DNA of 64,000 nucleotides from Saccharothrix syringae (GTDB lineage: Bacteria; Actinomycetota; Actinomycetes; Mycobacteriales; Pseudonocardiaceae): positions 1,798,001 through 1,862,000 of the forward strand of contig NZ_CP034550.1 of NCBI RefSeq assembly GCF_009498035.1. The letters run 5' to 3'. The translations under genes and the position numbers were made by a program. Numbering within the stretch: position 1 is the first letter of the stretch; each line of letters starts with the position of its first letter. The notes beneath the pieces were generated by a model that was not told the origin of the DNA, searched no databases, and saw nothing but the letters and a program-made list of their open reading frames with translations. Positions 33,051 through 62,090 of this stretch are shown here, one piece after another.

Positions 33051-34043
33051 TCAGCTGGCGTAGGCGCGCAGCCGGGCGGCCCGCTCACCCTGCCGCAGCT
33101 TCGCCATGACCTCCCGCTCGATCTGCCGCACCCGCTCCCTCGACAGCCCGAACTGCTTGCCGATCTGGTCCAGGGTGCGCGGCTGCCCGTCCTCCAGCCC
33201 GTAGCGCAGCCGGATCACCGCCTGCTCGCGCGGCTCCAGCGTGGCCAGCACCCGGCGCAGGTCGTCCTGCAGCAGGCCGGAGATGACCGCGCTCTCCGCG
33301 TCCGTGGCGTCGGAGTCCTCGATGAAGTCGCCCAGCGGGGCGTCCTCCTCGGTGCCGACCGGCATGTCCAGGCTCACCGGGTCGCGCGCGTGGTCGAGCA
33401 GGTCGGACACCTTGTCCGGCGACAGGCCCGACTCCTTGGCCAGCTCCTCGTTGGTCGCCTCGCGGCCGAGCTGCTGGTGCAGGTCGCGCTTGATCCGGGC
33501 CAGCTTGTTGACCTGCTCCACCAGGTGGACCGGGAGCCGGATGGTGCGGCCCTGGTCCGCCATTCCGCGGGTGATCGCCTGGCGGATCCACCACGTGGCG
33601 TAGGTGGAGAACTTGAAACCCTTGGTGTAGTCGAACTTCTCCACCGCGCGGATCAAACCCAGGTTCCCTTCCTGGATGAGGTCCAACAGCGGCATTCCGC
33701 GGCCGGTGTACCGCTTGGCGAGCGATACCACCAACCGCAGATTCGCTTCGAGCAGGTGGTTCTTCGCGACGTGGCCGTCGCGGATCAGCGCACGAAGTTC
33801 GCCGCGGCGCACATCGGTCAGACCGGACTTGGTCTCCAGCATGTGCTGCGCGAACACCCCCGCTTCGATGCGCTTGGCGAGTTCCACTTCCTCGGCCGCG
33901 GTCAGCAGCGCTGTCTTGCCGATGCCGTTCAGGTACACCCGAACGAGGTCGGCGGCCGGTCCCTGGGCGTCGAGGTCCATCTCGGCGCTGGTGCTGGTCT
34001 GCTCGTTCCCGACCTCTCGGTCGAGGACCTTCGGGACGGTCAT
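33051..34043 (-). CDS. sigB: RNA polymerase sigma factor, group 2 (SigB/Hrd-like)
   Basis: 330 residues: region 1.2 ([15 protein letters not shown]), region 2 with [20 protein letters not shown] and [12 protein letters not shown], region 3 and region 4 with [10 protein letters not shown]. It lacks the long N-terminal extension of the primary factor, so it is a non-essential, stress or stationary-phase sigma like mycobacterial SigB. GGGGGAGGGAG precedes the ATG. An upstream SigE/SigH-type promoter suggests control by an ECF factor. Confidence 0.93.
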
Positions 34044-49444: not shown

Positions 49445-49528
49445 CTAGTCGAGGTAGTCGCGCAGTAGGTTCGCCTGAAACGCAGTGCGGACCTGCGGAA
49501 ACCGCTGGTCGCAGCGGACCGTAGCCAC
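49445..49528 (-). CDS. micro-ORF, about 27 residues, ending at an intrinsic terminator
   Basis: From GTG 49526-49528 it reads VATVRCDQRFPQVRTAFQAN and ends LLRDYLD. The frame is open further upstream (EESVEDSA), so the start is unsure and no strong ribosome site was seen. Codons such as TTT, CTA and ACT differ from the chromosome, fitting the neighbouring mobile element. It is divergent from the element's first gene. Confidence 0.4.
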   Translation of the reverse strand: MATVRCDQRFPQVRTAFQANLLRDYLD

Positions 49529-49677: not shown

Positions 49678-50310
49678 ATGAGTATCGAAGCCGTCTCGTG
49701 GGTGCTCAACAGCGCCCCCATCCCCCGCGACCGCCGCGACGCCTCGTCGTTGACCGTGGTCCTGCTGGGCCTGGCCAACCACGCCGACCCCGCCGGGCGC
49801 AACGCGTTCCCCGCCGTCTCCACGCTCACTCGCTACACGAGGCTGTCGGAGCGCTCGGTCCAGTACGCCCTGCGCGCGCTGGAGGAGCTGGACCTGATCC
49901 GCCCCTCGGACCCGACGATCGTCGCCGCGTACGTGAAGCGGTCCGACCGCCGTCCGCGCGGCTGGGACCTCGCGGTGCACCGCTGCGAGGGGGCTGTGGA
50001 CAACCCGGCGGACGGGGTGCAGAGTCTGCGCCCCGTCGACCTGCACGGGGTGCAAAACCAGCGCCACGGGGTGCAAACAGCGACGTCACGGGGTGCAGAG
50101 CTTGCACCCGAAACGTCCTTGAACCGTCCCAAGAACCGTCCTTCGCGCGAGCGCGCGCCCGAGGCGCGCTCGCTGCCGGCGGAGTGCGGCGAGTGCGACG
50201 CCCGGCCCGGCGACCCGATCAGCGCCCGGCTCATCTGGACCGACGAGGACCGCACGCAGTCCGTGCCGTGCCCGCGCTGCGCGCCGGCCCGGAGCGGGGG
50301 TGCCCGGTGA
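49678..50310 (+). CDS. helix-turn-helix replication/regulatory protein at element left end
   Basis: 210 residues from ATG 49678. VLLGLANHADPAGRNAFPAV and SERSVQYALRALEELDLIRP form a winged HTH of the kind found in phage and plasmid replication initiators. The middle (residues 100-150) repeats the GVQ motif (DGVQSL, HGVQNQ, HGVQTA), and the tail has CGECDARPGD and CPRCAPARSG, a likely zinc ribbon. It may regulate the transfer genes that follow. Confidence 0.75.
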   Translation: MSIEAVSWVLNSAPIPRDRRDASSLTVVLLGLANHADPAGRNAFPAVSTLTRYTRLSERSVQYALRALEELDLIRPSDPTIVAAYVKRSDRRPRGWDLAVHRCEGAVDNPADGVQSLRPVDLHGVQNQRHGVQTATSRGAELAPETSLNRPKNRPSRERAPEARSLPAECGECDARPGDPISARLIWTDEDRTQSVPCPRCAPARSGGAR

Positions 50311-50492
50311 CGCGCGCCCACCTGACCTACCGCGAGCCGCACGGCTGGACCTCCCCCGTCGAGTGCCTGCCCTCCCGCGAGGCCGCCGAATTCCTGCGCG
50401 ATGCCACGAACGCGCTGACCCCGGCCGCCGCTGAGCGCCGGACCTGGTCCATCACCACCTGCGACGACGAGAACTGTGGGGCACGCCGATGA
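50307..50492 (+). CDS. small hypothetical protein, 61 residues
   Basis: GTG 50307 overlaps the previous stop (GTGA), and its own stop overlaps the DUF2637 start (ATGA). The sequence (VTRAHLTYREPHGWTSPVEC, ending CDDENCGARR) has Cys at 20, 53 and 58. No family recognised; its coupling on both sides suggests it is translated. Confidence 0.6.
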   Translation: MTRAHLTYREPHGWTSPVECLPSREAAEFLRDATNALTPAAAERRTWSITTCDDENCGARR

Positions 50493-51559
50493 GCTGGGCA
50501 GAGGAGCGTCGGGCGGACCGCGTCACGGCGGCCGAGCAGCGCCGGGCGGACGAGGTGCTGCGGTTCGAGCAGCGTCGCGCCGACCGGGCCGCCGCCGTCG
50601 AGCAGCGCCGCGCGGAGAAGGACGCCGCGCGTGCCCGCCGTGCCGCGCTGGTCGCGGCGGTGGCCGGGTGGCTGCGCGGCCACACCCTGGACCTGCTGTT
50701 CGTGCCGGTCATCGTGGTCCCGGCGGTGCTGGCCTGGACTGCGATGGCCGCCTACGGCCGCGAGGTGTTCGGGCCGGTCGGGGTGCTGCTACCGCTGTTC
50801 AGCGAGGGCGCGATGTGGTGCTTCGCGTTCGCGGTGCCGATGGCGCAGCGCGCGGGCCGACCCACCGGGTGGCTGCACTGCGGTACGTGGGTGTTCGCGG
50901 CGGTCGCGGGCGGCCTGAACTACGTCCACGGCGCGACCGTCGCCCACGGCGTGGTGATGGCGCTGGTGTCGGTCGGCGGCGTCGTGGTGCACCAGCTCGT
51001 CACCGCCGCCCCGGCCCGCCGCCGCAGCCGCGCCGAGCGCGACGCCGCCCGGCTGGAGCGGCAGGCCGCTCGTCGGGTGCTGGCGGTGCGCCGCGCCGCC
51101 CTGCGCCAGGCGGTGGCGGAGCTGGCCGCCGACGGCACCGCCACGCTGGTGCACCGGCCCGGCACGGTCGCGCTGCGCCGCCGCGCGGGCCGCACCCGGC
51201 TGGTTCCCGCCACCGTTCCCGGGCTTCCCGTCGCCCCGGTCGCCGACGGGCTCGGCGACGAGTTGGCGGCGGAGGTGGCGGCGTTCCTGGCCGCCGTTCC
51301 CGCCGACGCGGGAAACGCCGGGAACCGGCCGGGAAAAGCGGAAACGTCCCCGGAGGGCGTCCCGGCGGAGGCGGCGGGAAAGGTCGCCGAGCACCTTTCC
51401 CGGGTCCGTGCCGCCATCGCGGACGGACGCCTGCCGGCCGCCCCCAGCCAGGCGGCCGTGCGCCGGTTCCTGCGGTGCCGCGCCGAGCACGCCGCGCTGG
51501 TGCACCGCGCCCTGACCGGTCGCGGTGACGACGACTCCCACCCGGCGGTGACGGCATGA
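50489..51559 (+). CDS. DUF2637 membrane protein (Spd-like transfer protein)
   Basis: 356 residues. A charged N-terminal region with repeated EQRRAD is followed by about four membrane helices (LLFVPVIVVPAVLAWTAMAA, GVLLPLFSEGAMWCFAFAV and two more), then a basic cytosolic region. DUF2637 proteins lie beside TraB in actinomycete conjugative elements and are thought to help plasmid spread inside the mycelium. Coupled to the TraB gene by ATGA. Confidence 0.8.
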   Translation: MSWAEERRADRVTAAEQRRADEVLRFEQRRADRAAAVEQRRAEKDAARARRAALVAAVAGWLRGHTLDLLFVPVIVVPAVLAWTAMAAYGREVFGPVGVLLPLFSEGAMWCFAFAVPMAQRAGRPTGWLHCGTWVFAAVAGGLNYVHGATVAHGVVMALVSVGGVVVHQLVTAAPARRRSRAERDAARLERQAARRVLAVRRAALRQAVAELAADGTATLVHRPGTVALRRRAGRTRLVPATVPGLPVAPVADGLGDELAAEVAAFLAAVPADAGNAGNRPGKAETSPEGVPAEAAGKVAEHLSRVRAAIADGRLPAAPSQAAVRRFLRCRAEHAALVHRALTGRGDDDSHPAVTA

Positions 51560-53745
51560 CCCGGGCGGCACGGAAGGACGACGACATGGCCGGCGAGCTG
51601 ATCCCGTTTCCCGGCGCGGCCACTCCCGCGACCGCCGACGAGCCGGGGCCGGTCGCGCCGGTCCCGGCCGCCGGGCCGGTGCAGCCCGCCGAGCCCGTGC
51701 TGGACGGCGAGTTGATCAGCGAAGCCGAGTACCGGCGCAGCAAGGCACGGCGGCTCGCCGAGTCCGCCATGTCCAAGCTGCCCGCGAAGTGGCAGAGCCC
51801 GGAGACCGCGAAGCAGGCCGGGGCCGCGCTGGCGGGCCGCGCCGCCCTCGCCCCGGTCCGCTACCCGGCGGCCGTCGGCCGGGGCCTGGTCGTGTCCGCC
51901 CGCGCCTGGTGGGCGTGGGTCCGGGTGGCCGACTTCTACGACGCCGCCCGCAGCAGCGACAGTCTCGCCAGCCGCTGGCAGGAGATCGCGGTGGTGCGCC
52001 GCCGCCGGGGCGTGATCACGCTGGTGGCGACCTGTGCGACCGGGCTGGGCGGCCTGGTGGTCGACTTGACCGCCGGGTCTGTGCCGCTGGCCGTGGCCGG
52101 TGGCGCGGTGTCCGTGGCGCTGGCCGTCGCCGGACGCCGCAAGGACGGCTCGCCGGGCCGTCAGGCCGTGCTCGGCGGCGCGCGGTCGCTGGCGATGCTG
52201 CTCGACGGCGACAACCTCGTCCAGGCGTTCCGCGACGCCGGGGTGATCGGCAAGGCGGACCGGCTGTACCTGGTGGAGCGACTGCGCCGCGACGACACCG
52301 GGTTCTCGCTGGTCGTGGACCTGCCCGCAGGCCGCCGTGCCTCCGACGTGATCGCGAAGCGGGAGACCCTGGCCTCCGCGCTGGCGGTGGACGAGGTCAG
52401 GTTGATCTTGGAGCGCGTCCGGGGCGACAAGGGGCACGCGGGCAGGCTCGCGGTGTGGATCGGCCACGCCGACCCGTACGCGGCCGACCCGGTGCCCAGC
52501 CCGCTGGCCACGGCCGCGAGCTGGGACCTGTGGAAGCCGGTGCCGTTCGGCACCACCGCCCGGGGCGCGGCCGTGAACCTGCCGGTGGTGTGGACGTCGC
52601 TGCTGATCGGCGCGATTCCCCGGCAGGGCAAGACGTTCGTGATGCGCCTGCCGATCACTGCCGCCGCGCTGGACCCGCACGTGCGGCTGATCATCGCCGA
52701 CGGCAAGGGTGGCAAGGACTTCCGCCCGTTCGAGCAGGTCGCCCACCGGTTCATCCGGGGCTCCCGGGAATCCGAAGCCCGCCGCCTGATCGCCGTGCTG
52801 GAGGAGTGCGCGGCGGACGTCGCCGACCGGTTCGACCGGCTCTCGGAGATGGACGACACCCTGTGCCCGGAGTCCAAGGTCACCCCGGAGATCACCCGCG
52901 ACCCGGCCCACCGGATGCCGCTGACCGTGATCGGCATCGACGAGATCCAGAACTACCTGGGGCTCGACATGCCGTTGAACGAGGATGAGCCCAAGGGCAA
53001 GCGGGTCGGGCAGCGGATCTACGAGCTGCTGACGTTCATCGCGAAGACCGGCCCGGCCGCCGGGTATTCGCTGGTCCTGGCGACGCAGCGGCCGGACGCG
53101 AAGGTGATCCCCGACGGCTTGCGCGGCCAGCTCGGGACGCGGTTCGCGTTGCGGGTGATGAACTGGCAGGCGTCCGAGACGATCATGGGTGCGGGCACCT
53201 ACAAGGCCGGTGTCGACGCCTCCAAGCTGCTCAGCAGCCACAAGGGGGTGGGCTTGCTGCTGGGCGCGGACGGCGAGACGGAGCTGTCCGCCGGGGACGC
53301 AGTGGTCGTGCGGACCCACCTGCTGCACATCGCCGCGATCCGGGCCGCGTGTGAGCGCGGCCGGGCGCTGCGCGAGCAGGCCGGGACGCTCACCGGGGAC
53401 GCGGCCGGCCAGAACGACCTGGCCGCCCTGGACCCCACGGTGGCCGCGCGCCTGGCCGACGAGGTGACCGCCACGGCCGGGCCGGAGCCGGTGGACGCGG
53501 AGTTGGTCGAGCTGCCCGCCGCCCTGGCGGCGCTGGCCGACGTGCTCGTCGACGACGAGCACGGCGTGGTCGCCGTCGCCGAGCTGGCGTCCCGCGTCGG
53601 CTGGTCCGCGAAGGCGCTGGGCGAGGCGCTGACCCGCGCCGGAGTGCCGTCGCCGACGCCGGCACGGCAGCGCGTCAACGGCTCCAAGAACGCCGTGAGC
53701 GTCGCCGATTTGGACGCGATCAGGGTCGCGATCGACGGCCGCTGA
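51556..53745 (+). CDS. TraB/FtsK-like conjugative DNA translocase
   Basis: 729 residues. Two or more membrane helices around residues 150-195 precede a RecA-like ATPase: Walker A IPRQGKTF with Lys359, Walker B TVIGIDEIQNYLG with Asp462, and LVLATQRPDAKVIPD. The C-terminal 60 residues (LASRVGWSAKALGEALTRAG) form a winged helix. In Streptomyces TraB this module binds octamer repeats in clt and moves double-stranded DNA between cells; candidate repeats lie just downstream (53746-53950). ATG 51586, with GGAAGGA upstream, is an alternative start. Confidence 0.9.
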   Translation: MTRAARKDDDMAGELIPFPGAATPATADEPGPVAPVPAAGPVQPAEPVLDGELISEAEYRRSKARRLAESAMSKLPAKWQSPETAKQAGAALAGRAALAPVRYPAAVGRGLVVSARAWWAWVRVADFYDAARSSDSLASRWQEIAVVRRRRGVITLVATCATGLGGLVVDLTAGSVPLAVAGGAVSVALAVAGRRKDGSPGRQAVLGGARSLAMLLDGDNLVQAFRDAGVIGKADRLYLVERLRRDDTGFSLVVDLPAGRRASDVIAKRETLASALAVDEVRLILERVRGDKGHAGRLAVWIGHADPYAADPVPSPLATAASWDLWKPVPFGTTARGAAVNLPVVWTSLLIGAIPRQGKTFVMRLPITAAALDPHVRLIIADGKGGKDFRPFEQVAHRFIRGSRESEARRLIAVLEECAADVADRFDRLSEMDDTLCPESKVTPEITRDPAHRMPLTVIGIDEIQNYLGLDMPLNEDEPKGKRVGQRIYELLTFIAKTGPAAGYSLVLATQRPDAKVIPDGLRGQLGTRFALRVMNWQASETIMGAGTYKAGVDASKLLSSHKGVGLLLGADGETELSAGDAVVVRTHLLHIAAIRAACERGRALREQAGTLTGDAAGQNDLAALDPTVAARLADEVTATAGPEPVDAELVELPAALAALADVLVDDEHGVVAVAELASRVGWSAKALGEALTRAGVPSPTPARQRVNGSKNAVSVADLDAIRVAIDGR

Positions 53746-54824: not shown

Positions 54825-55190
54825 ATGGTGTCACACCCGGTCGACCTGCGCGAACCCCGCCGCTGCGTGGACTGCAACGCCGACCTCGTGCCCACCGGGC
54901 ACGGCCCGTTCTCCCTCGTGCACGAGGCGAGCTGCCCCGTCGCAATGGACGACCGCGCGCAGCGCGCCGCCGACTTCGCGTGGCTGACGGCCCACCCCGG
55001 CGAGGTCCGCGACCGCGAGCCCAGCGCCGGCGAGCGCGAGATGATCCGCATGCTGGGCGCACCCCGCAAGGTCGTCCGCTCCGTCCGCGTGCAGGTCAGC
55101 GCGCACCACGGCGGGCGGCTGATCATCTTCCACCAGCGCGGCAGGGCGCTCGTCGCCACCGCCGACGTGCCCCGTGGCGGTGCGGCATGA
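54825..55190 (+). CDS. small zinc-finger-like protein upstream of rep
   Basis: 121 residues, with AAAGGA before the ATG. CVDCNADLVPTG and EASCPVAMD suggest a zinc site; the second half has DREPSAGEREMIRMLGAP and a basic strand-rich tail. The stop overlaps the replication gene start (ATGA). Unknown family; coupling suggests a role in replication control. Confidence 0.6.
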   Translation: MVSHPVDLREPRRCVDCNADLVPTGHGPFSLVHEASCPVAMDDRAQRAADFAWLTAHPGEVRDREPSAGEREMIRMLGAPRKVVRSVRVQVSAHHGGRLIIFHQRGRALVATADVPRGGAA

Positions 55191-58100
55191 GCACCCCGAC
55201 CGCCGACACGGCGCTGATCGCCGAGTACGCCAAGCACCGCTTCGGGATTCACGAGCTGGGCGGCTACCACCTGGGCATCACCGCCATTCGCCACGGTGGC
55301 CGGGTGGAGAACGTCAGCGTCCCCGCCGACGACCTCGACGCCATCACCGCGACCGTGGCCCGCTACGCCGACGACCCCGGCGTGATGGGCGTGTTCGACT
55401 CGCAGACGTTGAGCCGCAAGCCGATCAGGGCGGGCCACCGCTACACCAGCGCCGACGCCGACGCGCTCCTGAGCTGCTGGGCGGAGGTCGACTTCGGCAA
55501 GCCCGACGCGCCGCCCACCCTGCACGACGCGCTGCGAGTGGTCGACGCGGTCGGCCTGCCGCCCACGACGATCAAGCACAGCGGTAACGGCATCCACGTC
55601 TCGTGGGCGCTGCCCGAGCCGTGGGAGCTGAACACCGACGCCGACCGGCGCGAGGCCGCCGAGCTGGAGCGCAACCTGGTCCGCAGCGTCGCTTTCCGCG
55701 CGCACGAGCTGGGCCTGTGGAAGGTCGACCGCATCCACGACCTGGCCCGCGTGCTGCGCACCCCCGGCAGCGTGAACCGGAAGAACCTGGCCGACCCGAA
55801 GCCGGTCACGATCCTGTCCCACGAGCCCGGCCGCGTGTACGAGGCCGACGACGTGCGGGCCGTGCTGGTCGAGAAGCGCTACCTGGACTCGATGAACACC
55901 GCCGGTGGCGTCACCGACGCCGACCAGCGCGCCGTGCTCGCACGCGTCAGCCTGGGCAGGGCGTGGGCCGAGGCGCGGCGCGGTGCCGCGCAGGAGCTGG
56001 TGGACATGATCGAGGACAGCGGCCTGGACGTCCGACTCCCGGAACTGTGGCGCGAAGCCGCAAAGCCGACCGTGGACGACAGCAGCGCGGATCTCGGGCT
56101 GGCTAACAGCACCTTCGCGCTGTTCCGCTCCATGGGCGAGGACCAGGCGCTGCACAAGGCCGCCGTGGTGATCATGGGCAGCCGTCTGCGCACCGGCCGC
56201 CGCGTGGAGAAGCTCGACCCCGGCCGGCGCATCGACTACGTGACGCGCACGCTCGCGTTGGTCGTCAAGCCGCGCGAGGACCGCACGCCCACCGTCGTCA
56301 CCGAGGAGGGCATCGCCCCTGTGACCGCCGCCGTCGAGCCGACCACCGACACCCCGGCCGTGACGGACGAGGCCCTGGAGTCGCTGCTGGCCTCCGAGCC
56401 GTCCGCCGAGAACGCCCCGACCACGTCGACCAAGGGCGAGGGCACCAAGAGCAAGAAGCCGAAGCGCCGCCGCGAGGCGGACGAGGCCCACGAGGCGGGC
56501 AACGGGTTGCCCGACGTGATCGTGACCGGCCGACCGCTGCGCGACACCGAGGCCGACGCCCGCAAGTTCCTCGCCCTCGCCCAGATCGAGAAGCCGATGA
56601 TCTTCCACTACGCGGACGCCGGGCTGGTCGAGATCGACCCGAGGACCGGCGAGATGAAGACCATCGCCCCCGCACGCCTGGCCCTGCTGCTCAACACCGT
56701 CATGAACTTCCGCGAGAGGCACACCGAGGAGGCCGACGACGGCACCAAGACCGTCAAGCTGACCCACACGCCGAAGGTGCCGTTCGACATCGTGGCCGCC
56801 CTGCACTCCGCGCCCGGCCTGATCGGCGTCCCGGAGCTGAAGAGGATCGCCAAGCTGCCGTACTTCGCCGAGGACGGCACGCTGGTCACCTCGCCGGGCT
56901 ACAACCGCAAGACTGGCATCTACCTGCACCGTGGGCCGGACAGCCCGCTGATCCCCGAGGTCTCCGCCAAGCCCTCCCCGGAGGAGCTGCGCGTGGCCCT
57001 GGAGCTGTTCACCCAGGATTTGTTGATCGATTTCCCGTTCGAGACCGACGCCGACCGCACCGCCGCCATGACCATGCCGATCACCCTGCTGGCCCGCGAG
57101 ATGATCCGGGGCGCGTGCCCCCTGTTCATGATCGACACTCCCCGCCCCGGCACCGGCAAGGGCAAGCTCGTCAGCGGCCTGGTCAAGCCGTTCGACCCCG
57201 AATTCGCGTTCAGCATCGCGCCCACGGGCTCGGACGAGTGGCCCAAGAGCCTGGTCGCGGCCATGCGCAAGGGGCGGCCCACGGTCGCGTTCGACAACAT
57301 CAACGCCGCCCTGGACTCCGGGGCGCTGGCCGCCGCCGTCACCGAATGGCCGTTCGTCCGCAACCGCCTGATGGGCACCCACGAGGAGATCGTGCTGCCC
57401 ACCCCCGCCCTGTGGGTCGGCACCGGCAACTCCGTCACCGCCTCCAGCGAGCTGGCGCGCAGGATCGTCCGCGTGCGGCTCGACGCCAAGACCGCCAAGC
57501 CCGAGGAGCGCACCGGGTTCAAGCACCCGGAGATCCTGGACTGGATCGAGGAGCACACGCCGCAGCTCATCTGGGCCGCGTTGACCATGATCCAGTCGTG
57601 GATCGCGGCCGGGCGGCCCATCGCGGCCGACCTGCCGAAGTTCGGCAGCTTCGAGAGGTGGACCCGGATCGTCGGCTCCATCGCCGCCCACGTGGGGATG
57701 CCCGACTTCCTGAAGAACCGCAGCGCCGCCAGCGCGGACATCGACACCGAGACCGAGCTGATCATGGCCTTCTGCACCACGTGGGCGCACGACCCCGGCC
57801 GCGACCCGATCAAGGACGAGACGGGCGAAATCCGCGACCCCGGCCGCCCGTCCTGCGCCAACCGCGCGGTCCGCGTGGACGAGCTGCTGGAGCTGGTGGA
57901 CGAGTACAAGCTGGAGCTGCCCGCGCAGATCGGCCCTCAGGGCACCGACCGGCGCTCGAAGTTCGGGACCTGGCTCCGCAAGGTCATCGCCGCCCCCGTT
58001 GGCCCGTACAGCTTCGTCAAGACCCGGCCGCGCAACGTCGCGCACTACCGCCTGGTGGACGACGGCACCGGGGAGTTCGACGAAGGCGGCATCACCATCG

Positions 58101-58270
58101 ACCCCGAGCCGACCAGCAAGCACACGCCCCGCGCGAACCCCCCGACCAAGCCCAAGGCCCAGCCCGCCCCGGAACCGGAGACCGCCCCGGAGCCCACGGT
58201 GGGCGGGTACGCCAGCGACGAGGACGAGGCGCGCTGGGAAGCCCTCATGAACGAGGAGCCCGCCGCCTGA
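55187..58270 (+). CDS. primase-polymerase / helicase replication protein of an AICE
   Basis: 1027 residues. The N-terminal archaeo-eukaryotic primase domain shows Glu100-x-Asp102 in WAEVDFG, HSGNGIHVSWAL (His137) and DLARVLRTPGSVNRK. After a charged linker (about residues 400-450) comes a P-loop ATPase: GTGKGKL near residue 655, Walker B VAFDNIN near 703, and SELARRIVRVRL as sensor/arginine finger. The P-loop has Gly-Lys-Leu where Ser/Thr is usual. Such proteins start replication of the excised circle. The candidate origin is directly downstream. Confidence 0.88.
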   Translation: MSTPTADTALIAEYAKHRFGIHELGGYHLGITAIRHGGRVENVSVPADDLDAITATVARYADDPGVMGVFDSQTLSRKPIRAGHRYTSADADALLSCWAEVDFGKPDAPPTLHDALRVVDAVGLPPTTIKHSGNGIHVSWALPEPWELNTDADRREAAELERNLVRSVAFRAHELGLWKVDRIHDLARVLRTPGSVNRKNLADPKPVTILSHEPGRVYEADDVRAVLVEKRYLDSMNTAGGVTDADQRAVLARVSLGRAWAEARRGAAQELVDMIEDSGLDVRLPELWREAAKPTVDDSSADLGLANSTFALFRSMGEDQALHKAAVVIMGSRLRTGRRVEKLDPGRRIDYVTRTLALVVKPREDRTPTVVTEEGIAPVTAAVEPTTDTPAVTDEALESLLASEPSAENAPTTSTKGEGTKSKKPKRRREADEAHEAGNGLPDVIVTGRPLRDTEADARKFLALAQIEKPMIFHYADAGLVEIDPRTGEMKTIAPARLALLLNTVMNFRERHTEEADDGTKTVKLTHTPKVPFDIVAALHSAPGLIGVPELKRIAKLPYFAEDGTLVTSPGYNRKTGIYLHRGPDSPLIPEVSAKPSPEELRVALELFTQDLLIDFPFETDADRTAAMTMPITLLAREMIRGACPLFMIDTPRPGTGKGKLVSGLVKPFDPEFAFSIAPTGSDEWPKSLVAAMRKGRPTVAFDNINAALDSGALAAAVTEWPFVRNRLMGTHEEIVLPTPALWVGTGNSVTASSELARRIVRVRLDAKTAKPEERTGFKHPEILDWIEEHTPQLIWAALTMIQSWIAAGRPIAADLPKFGSFERWTRIVGSIAAHVGMPDFLKNRSAASADIDTETELIMAFCTTWAHDPGRDPIKDETGEIRDPGRPSCANRAVRVDELLELVDEYKLELPAQIGPQGTDRRSKFGTWLRKVIAAPVGPYSFVKTRPRNVAHYRLVDDGTGEFDEGGITIDPEPTSKHTPRANPPTKPKAQPAPEPETAPEPTVGGYASDEDEARWEALMNEEPAA

Positions 58271-58337
58271 TCCACGGCACCACCCACACGGCCCCCCGAT
58301 CCACACGGACGGGGGGCCGTTCCGCGTCCGGCGGCAG

Positions 58338-58645
58338 GGCCTGGGTTAGGGCCTGGGTTAGGTGCGAGCAGGGTCCGGGTTAGGGGGTGGGTTAGGTGCC
58401 CACAACGTTCTGACCAGGCAAGGTTAGGTGGGTTAGGTGCTCCCTTGACCTCTACGCGGGTAGCGAGGTTGTGGTCGTCGTGGTTATCCCGTGCGCCGTG
58501 TGGGCGTGTACGCGCTCGTGTGGGCCTCCGGTGGACCCCGCTGCACCTAACCCACCTAACCTCCCCAGGTCAGAGCGTTGGGCGCACCTAACCTCCCCCC
58601 TAACCCAGCGGGGTGGAGCACCTAACCTTGCACCTAACCCAGCGC
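58338..58645. repeat. Candidate origin of replication: large inverted repeat with 12 GGTTAGG-core octamers
   Basis: GGGTTAGG octamers on the plus strand start at 58343, 58355, 58377, 58389, 58421 (first base A) and 58430. Their reverse complements start at 58546, 58555, 58587, 58599, 58621 and 58633. The gaps are 12-22-12-32-9 and 9-32-12-22-12, perfect mirror images, so the arms (58338-58440 and 58543-58645) form one long imperfect inverted repeat; AACG-x-TCTGACC is also shared. The 102-bp centre contains CTAC-GCGG-GTAG and TTATCCCG. Confidence 0.8.
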
Positions 58646-59843: not shown

Positions 59844-59972
59844 CGGTCTCACCGTGCTGGCGGATCGCCCGTCCACGAGCCGGCAGCGACGCTACGAGGA
59901 TGCTGGTCCGGTCGATCACCGTGGCTTGTCCCACCCGCCGTGGTGCGGAGTCGGGTAGGTGACGCCGCTGGG

Positions 59973-62090
59973 ATGAACCTGCCGGAATCGCACCCGGATG
60001 ATCGGCAGATCGCCTACAACGGTCCGGTGCCCGATGACACCACCGCCGACGCCCGCTCCCGCGTCAAGCCCGACTGGCCGACCTGCTCGCACGACGAGGG
60101 GCGGTGTATCGGTCGTCGGGTCGCTGAGTACGAGTACTGCTTGGCGCACCTGCCGCCGGACGAACTCGACGGCTTGCTCCAGTCCGTTGAACCGGGGGCC
60201 GACCTAGACCTGCGCGGCACCGACCTCACCGGTGCCGTGTTCGACCGACTGCTCGTCCGCATGATCGAGGAGCCCGATAGTCCCGATCCTTCAACTCTTA
60301 TTGGCATAGCCGACCTGCGCTACTGTGATATCCCTGCCGTTAAACGATTTCGTCGCGCACAGTTCGCCGATGATGCCCGGTTTGATGGTGCGACGTTTAC
60401 CGGTGAAGCTCGGTTTGATGGTGCGACGTTTACCGGTGAAGCTCGGTTTGATGGTGCGACGTTTACCGGTGAAGCCGTGTTCGTCAATGTGACGTTCACT
60501 GGAGACGCTGTATTTGACGGAGTAAAATTCGCCAACGAAGCCATATTTGAGCAGGTGGAGTTCGTTGGTAGGGGCATATTTGCCGATGCGCACTTTGTCG
60601 ATGTCGCCGCATTCATCGGTGTGGCGTTTACTGGCAACCCCTGGTTCGAGAGTGCGAGGTTCGACGGTGACGCTTTTTTCGATTCTGCACATTTCGCCGA
60701 TGGTGCCTCGTTCGACAATGCAACGTTCGCCGGTGACACTGAGTTCGGCGGTGCAGAATTCGAAGGAAATGTCCATTTTGACAAGGTGGCTTTTACTGGC
60801 AGTATCCAGTTCGCCGGGACGACATTCGCGCATGTCGTGACTTTTGTTGGAGCGACGTTTGCTTTAGTCGACGTGTTCGGCCCGGTGGTGGCGGAGGTTA
60901 TCAGCTTGAACCGGGCGTCGTTCGCCAAGCGGGTGGCCGTGAAGGTGGAGGCCAGTCTGCTGTCGGCGGAGGATGTCCGTTTCGACGACGGAGTGGAGTT
61001 GAGAATACGTCACGCGCGTGTGTGGCTCCGACGGGCATTCTTCGGCGCGGCATCATCGGTGAGCGGGATCGCCGTCCCATTCGCCGTTACATTCGGCCAG
61101 CAGACTCAGGAGGTCGGGGCCGAACCGGAGCGGATAGAAGCGTGGACGATTGCGGCGAGGCAGGAGTCCGTTCCCAAAAAGCAGCATGATCAGAATAGAG
61201 ATGAGGCGTGGGTGCCACAGGTGCTCTCATTGCAGGAGGCCGACGTGTCGCAGGTGACGCTGACCGACGTGGACCTGCGGTGGTGCCGCTTCGCTGGGGC
61301 GCACCAATTGGACAAGCTGCGCTTGGAAGGCCGCAGCCCGTTCCACCGGCCTCCGGGCAGGTGGTTGACGGGATGGGCTTGGCCGCCGGTATGGCGTTGG
61401 TCGGGGCGGCGTGTGCTGGCTGAGGAACACCCCTGGAGGGCGAGCCGCCGCAAATCTGCTGGCTGGAGCCCTACCGTGCCTCTTCCGAACTACCTAGCCG
61501 AGCAGATACCGGATGGCGGACAAGTGCCAGCGGTGGGGCCGGAGCGGCTGGCCGTACTGTATCGGAGCCTGCGTAAAGCTCTGGAGGATGCAAAGAACGA
61601 GCCCGGAGCGGGCGATTTCTACTACGGCGAGATGGACGCCCGCCGCCACGCCTCCTCAACCGGAACCGGTGAACGCCTCGTGTTGGTCGTCTATTGGCTG
61701 CTGTCGGGCTACGGCCAGCGTGCCGGTCGCGCTTTCGCCGCGCTGGCGTTGCTGGTCGGAGTGCTGTTCACCGGCTTGACCTACTACGGCCTGCCCGACA
61801 CTTCCACTCCGGCGGCCCCGCTGACCGGCACCGTCCGCACGCCCACCGGCCAGCCGCAGCAGGTCACCATCGAGACCACCGCGCCGGCCAAGCTGCCCCC
61901 GCCGGACCGGCGCTGGACCGCGGAGCGCATGGACAAGGCCGCGCGCATCGCCTTGGGCTCGGTGGTCTTCCGCGACACCGACCAGAAGCTCACCACCGCC
62001 GGGTCCTGGATCTTGATGGCCGGGCGTGCGTTCGGGCCGCTGCTGCTCGCGCTCGCGGCGTTGGCGATCCGTGCCCGCGTCAAGCGGTGA
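59973..62090 (+). CDS. pentapeptide-repeat protein with two C-terminal membrane helices
   Basis: About 705 residues. Residues 60-110 include CIGRRVAEYEYCLAHL; from about 130 to 320 there are many F-x-x-A-x-F pentapeptide-type repeats (ARFDGATFTGE, AIFEQVEF, ASFDNATF), forming a right-handed beta-helix. A conserved linker (KNEPGAGDFYYGEMDARRH) and two membrane helices (FAALALLVGVLFTGLTYYG and AFGPLLLALAALAIRA) follow. Possibly an immunity or membrane-scaffold protein. The repeat part has much lower GC than its surroundings, a sign of transfer. Confidence 0.85.
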   Translation: MNLPESHPDDRQIAYNGPVPDDTTADARSRVKPDWPTCSHDEGRCIGRRVAEYEYCLAHLPPDELDGLLQSVEPGADLDLRGTDLTGAVFDRLLVRMIEEPDSPDPSTLIGIADLRYCDIPAVKRFRRAQFADDARFDGATFTGEARFDGATFTGEARFDGATFTGEAVFVNVTFTGDAVFDGVKFANEAIFEQVEFVGRGIFADAHFVDVAAFIGVAFTGNPWFESARFDGDAFFDSAHFADGASFDNATFAGDTEFGGAEFEGNVHFDKVAFTGSIQFAGTTFAHVVTFVGATFALVDVFGPVVAEVISLNRASFAKRVAVKVEASLLSAEDVRFDDGVELRIRHARVWLRRAFFGAASSVSGIAVPFAVTFGQQTQEVGAEPERIEAWTIAARQESVPKKQHDQNRDEAWVPQVLSLQEADVSQVTLTDVDLRWCRFAGAHQLDKLRLEGRSPFHRPPGRWLTGWAWPPVWRWSGRRVLAEEHPWRASRRKSAGWSPTVPLPNYLAEQIPDGGQVPAVGPERLAVLYRSLRKALEDAKNEPGAGDFYYGEMDARRHASSTGTGERLVLVVYWLLSGYGQRAGRAFAALALLVGVLFTGLTYYGLPDTSTPAAPLTGTVRTPTGQPQQVTIETTAPAKLPPPDRRWTAERMDKAARIALGSVVFRDTDQKLTTAGSWILMAGRAFGPLLLALAALAIRARVKR
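60378..60476 (+). repeat. Three tandem 33-bp repeats in the pentapeptide gene
   Basis: Units at 60378-60410, 60411-60443 and 60444-60476 are identical apart from the last base of the third. Each encodes RFDGATFTGEA. DNA identity this high inside a protein repeat points to recent duplication. Confidence 0.9.

Follow-up and report, generated by a model that had tools for sequence, protein, structure and literature searches.

Where does an integrative element that encodes its own primase-polymerase (prim-pol) protein start its replication? The question is raised by a 64,000-nt stretch of Saccharothrix syringae DNA (hereafter the window), in which an array of short repeats (iterons) follows rep, a gene for a replication protein (Rep). 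Prim-pol proteins are among the less well characterised replication proteins of actinomycete integrative and conjugative elements (AICEs) (Ghinet et al., PMC3218068); the available part of that paper describes no prim-pol origin for AICEs, and no mapped one was met in the accessible text of the AICE literature surveyed. Based on the geometry of the array, its position right after rep, the attachment (att) sites and integrase of the surrounding element, and the recurrence of arrays after many related rep genes, we propose that the array is very probably the replication origin of an actinomycete integrative element 21.9 kb long.

The array has the layout that an earlier note on this DNA had described, i.e., twelve GGTTAGG copies in two arms with mirrored spacings. 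Six copies lie on the forward and six on the reverse strand, with spacings of 12-22-12-32-9, a centre gap of 115, and 9-32-12-22-12, and the mirroring is exact for 6/6 iteron pairs. None of 5000 permutations reached the same, and for the given set of gaps a mirrored order combined with antisymmetric strands would arise by chance with a probability of about 2e-5. GGTTAGG occurs once more in the window and 130 times in the whole genome of 10.93 Mb. The inverted repeat, announced with arms of about 103 bp and a 102-bp centre, measured 103 bp for each arm (79/103 positions complementary) and 102 bp for the centre, and the motif AACG-x-TCTGACC, said to be common to the arms, was found in both. The array also lies, as claimed, directly after the replication gene, just 3' of its primase-helicase reading frame. 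The description as octamers needs correction: the repeats are real, but the invariant core is 7 bp only and the base next to it varies (GGGTTAGG, AGGTTAGG). A strong G+C inverted repeat (ACGGCCCCCCG...CGGGGGGCCGT, 58288-58325), which looks terminator-like by eye, separates the rep stop codon from the array.

Relatives of Rep were sought with its C-terminal 606 residues (family, genus) or the full protein (class), the window's own genome being counted, and were present in 15/150 family, 6/25 genus and 18/296 class genomes; a scan of genome contigs yielded 47 named loci with Rep relatives. In total, 85 loci were scored: the window, 15 family, 5 further genus, 47 named and 11 class loci, and 6 plasmids. 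The class set comprises 11 of the 18 places, six matching only the primase part and one matching only a short C-terminal piece being left out. Because a simple count of the commonest 7-mer did not discriminate in the GC-rich window (5 copies were reached by 113/178 control stretches from the window and 197/571 from the loci), we adopted a composition-corrected score for the best 7-mer in the 700 bp after rep, with the 99th percentile of 749 control windows as threshold; these controls were drawn from the same sequences as the scored loci, and the locus sets overlap. The earlier note had staked its proposal on arrays being present downstream of related rep genes, and an array above threshold was found 3' of rep in 67/85 loci (window 1/1, family 15/15, genus 3/5, named 33/47, class 9/11, plasmids 6/6). 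Twelve of the 67 were the same record reached twice, and their removal leaves 55 distinct arrays. Among the 18 sub-threshold loci, K. banguiense has 11 AACCCGC copies in a window 1.5-2.2 kb after rep. No array was seen in pSTRVI02, a seventh actinobacterial plasmid that stood outside the scoring. The rep relative of Amycolatopsis pithecellobii (L078) has three stops in the matched frame, and the 700 bp that follow the first of them hold no clear array.

Mirrors that are exact, or at most 1 bp off per pair, were found in seven arrays: those of the window, of genomes G059 and G159 (Rep C-terminus 91% and 59% identical to that of the window), of the Streptomyces plasmid pWTY27, and of Winogradskya, Micromonospora and Spongiactinospora. 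Their cores are GGTTAGG, GTTAGGT, GTGGGAA, CGGGTTT, CCGGAGT and GCGGGGT, and the inner pairs are 9-10 bp apart in all seven. Arrays without significant mirror symmetry in the permutation test (see below) have an irregular, compact or one-sided layout. Some Lentzea and Saccharothrix arrays have gaps of 18-11-11-20-47-8 or 21-11-20-48-8, compared with 20-11-11-30-46-10 in Nonomuraea, and in our reading these are half-origins, corresponding to one half of the Nonomuraea type. Two further layouts were observed: locus L102 (genome G418) carries, 3' of rep, four CAGGTCAG copies and 16 iterons, like a mirrored origin nested twice, and L105 and L083, identical in array sequence, show a pair of opposed half-arrays separated by about 400 bp of other sequence.

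Besides the iterons, a second element, CAGGTCAGA, recurs independently of them, while the iteron sequence differs between loci. Over all 55 distinct arrays, with iterons masked and compared with 1000 shuffles that ignore shared descent, AGGTCA was present in 32/55 (shuffle mean 2.6, maximum 8) and GGTCA in 42/55 (mean 13.4, maximum 23). A CAGGTCAGA-like element was flanked on both sides by iterons within 70 bp in 37/55 (mean 3.8, maximum 11) and had an outward-pointing iteron 10-13 bp away in 16/55 (mean 0.17, maximum 3), with a close iteron pair often at 9-10 or 19-20 bp on its far side. In the window, G059 and G159, the element-iteron distances are 4-5 and 12 bp, the same in both halves. These counts supersede earlier ones on chosen loci (GGTCA in 45/49 and AGGTCA in 28/49 regions; AGGTCA in 22/27), which omitted AGGTCA-less arrays (e.g., L104 and L106; several Amycolatopsis in the case of 22/27); the element count of 49/61, made without a shuffle control, is likewise replaced by the 32/55 for AGGTCA. 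Our confidence in the origin was kept after the unselected counts because the excess over shuffles remains large.

Further background is given by the repeats at the pMEA300 origin, by ori/crr of phage P4 and by the ssi sites of RSF1010. The origin proposed here is known in kind through pWTY27, SaPI and pRN1, as far as these are described in PMC3583192, PMC7581432 and PMC4234260. The earlier note, which did not recognise this form of array from any described AICE, overstated its novelty, since pWTY27 combines a homologous Rep with a mirrored array of this kind (PMC3583192). According to that paper, a 300-bp segment after repA, in which the mirrored array lies, is needed for replication of pWTY27 while a 149-bp piece is insufficient, RepA protects positions 405-447 and 462-509, and a linear derivative with added telomeres propagates, from which its authors infer bidirectional replication. 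Mapped on the sequence, the two footprints take in both inner pairs and some of the centre. Both systems have a homologous RepA helicase (Rep 548-945 matches pWTY27 RepA by tblastn at E 3e-36, 27% identity), a primase-polymerase partner, which is fused in the window, and mirrored iterons directly 3' of the gene. The mirror is exact in pWTY27 (11-17-39-9, 73, 9-39-17-11), with inner pairs 9 bp apart and one CAGGTCAG copy per arm. Both also have a DUF2637 gene, on pWTY27 about 3.4 kb from repA. On the other hand, pWTY27 is an autonomous plasmid with a separate primase gene, and its octamer, GTGGGAAC, occurs in 10 copies rather than 12, in mixed orientation inside the arms. Its origin evidence may be transferred to the window array by homology.

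The SaPI rep/ori (SaPI5 primase-helicase, PDB 7ola; PMC7581432) comes, unlike the window, from staphylococcal phage satellites; the shared trait is a D5-type helicase with downstream iterons, the fold being taken from a K. persicum relative. The archaeal plasmid pRN1 likewise has a primase-helicase Rep with a symmetric region right after its gene, but it requires hairpin integrity, and the available part of PMC4234260 reports no octamer array. The recurring geometry, the second element and the half-origins are not mentioned in the accessible pWTY27, SaPI and pRN1 literature, in which no search was aimed at CAGGTCAGA or half-origins; GGTCA was not found in the main text of PMC3583192, its figures lying outside this look-up.

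The N-terminus of Rep matches phrog_2478 (E 1.9e-17), identifying the fused primase. No Pfam family was matched at E 0.1, and thus neither was PF12307 (RepAM-type, DUF3631). For the C-terminus, a D5-type helicase fold is suggested by the K. persicum relative, to which it is 28% identical and for which Foldseek gave modest TM-scores (by query length, about 0.3-0.4); this relative carries the fold argument because the AlphaFold2 model of the window Rep failed. PDB sequence searches gave nothing usable, the profile search returning 6 hits at E up to 1 with no SaPI chain among them.

Judged from its sequence, the array belongs to an integrative element bounded by 19-bp repeats, with an integrase adjoining one of them, and the positions of these repeats (Table 1) set its length at 21.9 kb. 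Direct att repeats and a tyrosine recombinase thus bear out the integrative element assumed in the earlier note. Like the AICEs SLP1 and pSAM2, it has an integrase and att sites, together with a candidate FtsK-like Tra and predicted replication of its own (PMC3218068), and the combination of prim-pol and RepPP is known from SCO4617/SCO4618 (PMC3218068). Its att site lies in sigA, whereas AICEs usually use a tRNA gene (PMC3218068). The right-hand repeat is the end of sigA (LRDYLD-stop), and this principal-type sigma factor gene keeps its last codons. In three of the 11 congeneric loci (L138, L146, L147), the left flank lies close to an intact end of sigA that has a single core mismatch, and the element is absent; in L145 the sigA end is at the limit of the fetched stretch, and no sigA end was found within the fetched stretch of the remaining 7/11. 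One literature search surfaced no paper on an AICE at the sigA 3' end. An ARAGORN call of tRNA-Pro at 50104-50191 was rejected as att site and is probably false, as it lies inside the HTH_36 open reading frame (ORF) and the att repeat lies elsewhere. The FtsK/SpoIIIE-like protein reached 21.4 bits against PF01580, under the 24-bit cut-off. The element also contains two pentapeptide-repeat-like proteins (window 59940-62090, by Pfam; L010 8151-9278, reverse strand, by eye) and, at the window end, a small serine resolvase/invertase-like gene (L010 3989-4564). Elsewhere, window 33310-33880 shares blocks of up to 37 identical bp with the sigA region at 71.6-72.2 kb and is probably a second, similar sigma factor gene.

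Table 1. Coordinates of the proposed origin and of the element carrying it (window numbering)
Feature	Position	Strand	Remarks
Mirror-symmetric iteron array, proposed origin	58338..58645		12 exact GGTTAGG, spacing mirrored
Left arm	58338..58440	+	outer iterons 58344, 58356, 58378, 58390; inner pair 58422, 58431
Right arm	58543..58645	-	inner pair 58546, 58555; outer iterons 58587, 58599, 58621, 58633
Left inner iteron pair	58422..58437	+	9 bp apart; counterpart of the pWTY27 pair within a RepA footprint
Right inner iteron pair	58546..58561	-	9 bp apart
Centre between arms, proposed unwinding region	58441..58542		alternating purine-pyrimidine tract GCGTGTACGCGC
Conserved element, left copy	58409..58417	-	CTGGTCAGA, 1 mismatch to CAGGTCAGA
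Conserved element, right copy	58566..58574	+	CAGGTCAGA exact
rep gene	55187..58270	+	1027 aa from ATG, frame open from 54779; primase-type N-terminus, D5-type AAA+ helicase C-terminus
attL	49447..49465		19-bp repeat AGTCGAGGTAGTCGCGCAG
HTH_36 protein	49681..50310	+	start codon uncertain
DUF2637 protein	50489..51559	+	
FtsK/SpoIIIE-like protein, candidate DNA translocase (Tra)	51559..53745	+	PF01580, E 1.9e-4
Tyrosine recombinase	70389-71285	-	beyond window
attR	71377-71395 (G000:C1:1869377-1869395; L010 11377-11395)		second copy of 19-bp repeat, in sigA 3' end; beyond window

We infer a mode of action with two opposed Rep assemblies and bidirectional firing. After excision, Rep, with its primase and D5-type helicase, would bind the octamers, and two assemblies would face each other on the inner 9-bp pairs, with the outer iterons lending stability. 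The assemblies would open the centre between the arms, and the primase part would launch a fork to either side. Each arm's CAGGTCAGA-like copy would be a second, nearly fixed site, which a conserved part of Rep or the primase might read for loading or primer start. Within the origin reading, CAGGTCAGA might instead be the site of a host factor, a possibility that we take seriously without favouring it. The element recurs while the iterons change, and the elements use different primases (fused in the window Rep, a separate PF09250 gene in pWTY27 and pCM32), as a host-factor site would allow, but CAGGTCAGA is not clearly over-represented in the host genome, with 56 copies in 10.93 Mb against 9 of the reversed control and about 47 estimated by hand from base composition, and in a Methylobacterium plasmid a copy with one mismatch directly adjoins the array.

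The inverted repeat might also act as a DNA structure, its arms forming a cruciform or stem-loop recognised by Rep. Such recognition of a long stem-loop was proposed by the pWTY27 authors for IR2 (PMC3583192), pRN1 requires an intact stem-loop after its rep gene (PMC4234260), and the window arms are largely complementary. Pairing of the spacers between mirrored iterons was tried at 15 loci and compared at the 10 with at least 20 spacer bp. It was above chance (p<0.05) in 4/10, namely the window (16/34, p 0.029), G059 (18/34), G159 (22/35) and Winogradskya (17/37), but not significant in the other six: Micromonospora (25%), Nonomuraea (20%), K. persicum (29%), Protofrankia (26%), Spongiactinospora (34%, p 0.081) and pWTY27 (38%, p 0.092). 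Because spacers pair above chance in only these four, the pattern favours a geometry of protein sites over a hairpin, and arrays that look like a single half exist; we therefore regard a structural role as improbable. Of 13 loci picked because their centre is long, 12 have a lower GC content there than in the gene, and eight have alternating purine-pyrimidine tracts (p 0.015 or less).

Iterons generally titrate initiators, and an array near rep could serve partition, as a centromere-like site, or control copy number and incompatibility. A ParA gene does follow the array in S. cyaneofuscatus, but a scan of ten window proteins, which do not cover all ORFs of the element, matched no ParA/ParB family, and the pWTY27 counterpart is essential for replication (PMC3583192), which makes this role very unlikely. 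Least credible is that the array is no origin at all and serves transfer, as a clt-like site to which the FtsK-like Tra binds: TraB of pSVH1 binds repeated 8-bp motifs (as stated in PMC3583192) and the element encodes an FtsK-like protein, but the arrays follow rep, in loci that were found through rep, and the homologous array of pWTY27 is its replication ncs, its clt lying beside traA with other repeats (PMC3583192).

Several observations weigh against the array as origin. Rep binding and a replication role are predictions for the window element, and the AlphaFold2 model of Rep, left unused, had a mean pLDDT (per-residue model confidence) of 44. The centre is not AT-rich, at 68% GC compared with 71% in rep. 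Strict mirror symmetry reached p<0.05 by permutation in only 16/60 arrays (11/47 + 5/13), the 60 including duplicates (L083/L105, L053/L087, L012/L060). AGGTCA is absent from 23/55 arrays, the window distances (4 and 12 bp) are unlike the commoner 11-13 and 9-10 or 19-20 bp, and the shuffle tests ignore shared descent among arrays. Besides, 14/47 named loci fell under the threshold, including all six with <40% identity. From the 149-bp piece of pWTY27, not only the outer iterons are missing but also the final base of one CAGGTCA copy, and because of this second loss the effect of the outer iterons cannot be read from it separately.

Inverted repeats after more distant related genes were examined at 20 loci, each compared with only 10 shuffles. 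The shuffle maximum was exceeded at 12/20, barely in L096, and in L135 and L055 with arms far from the gene or far apart. The archaeal plasmid pGP6 (L126 4331-4715) has an inverted repeat soon after a related rep, with arms of 86 nt that are 94% complementary, and Azospirillum p2 has one of 31/31 close after the related gene; two Methylobacterium plasmids, Psychrobacter pA32H2 and some others also exceeded their shuffles. No excess was found at 8/20 (Legionella adelaidensis, C. sphaeroides pC, pSTRVI02, Psychrobacter pA17P3 (18.0 vs 18.5), L078, L091, L099 and L100), and phage phiAsp2 showed no repeat in the 141 bp inspected after the related gene. The CAGGTCAGA element is mostly absent from the distant loci, with one mismatch in M. 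tardum and at least two in the other six examined. A single origin design for the whole PrimPol/D5-helicase replicon family is a tentative and rather unlikely generalisation. Its half-origin block would consist of an iteron, CAGGTCAGA about 12 bp away, and an iteron pair about one helical turn apart; mirrored blocks would load two opposed hexamers for bidirectional replication, single blocks (Lentzea, some Saccharothrix) would work one-way, CAGGTCAGA would be a fixed signal for primer start or loading, and Rep and iterons would drift together.

Overall, the recurring layout, in which a nearly fixed element is combined with lineage-dependent iterons, provides candidate binding sites, a minimal unit and a clear test of whether replication runs one way or both ways. 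From this layout, origins can be predicted for elements in Pseudonocardiaceae, Micromonosporaceae, Streptomycetaceae, Nocardioides and Frankia, which would help to build vectors for these hosts.
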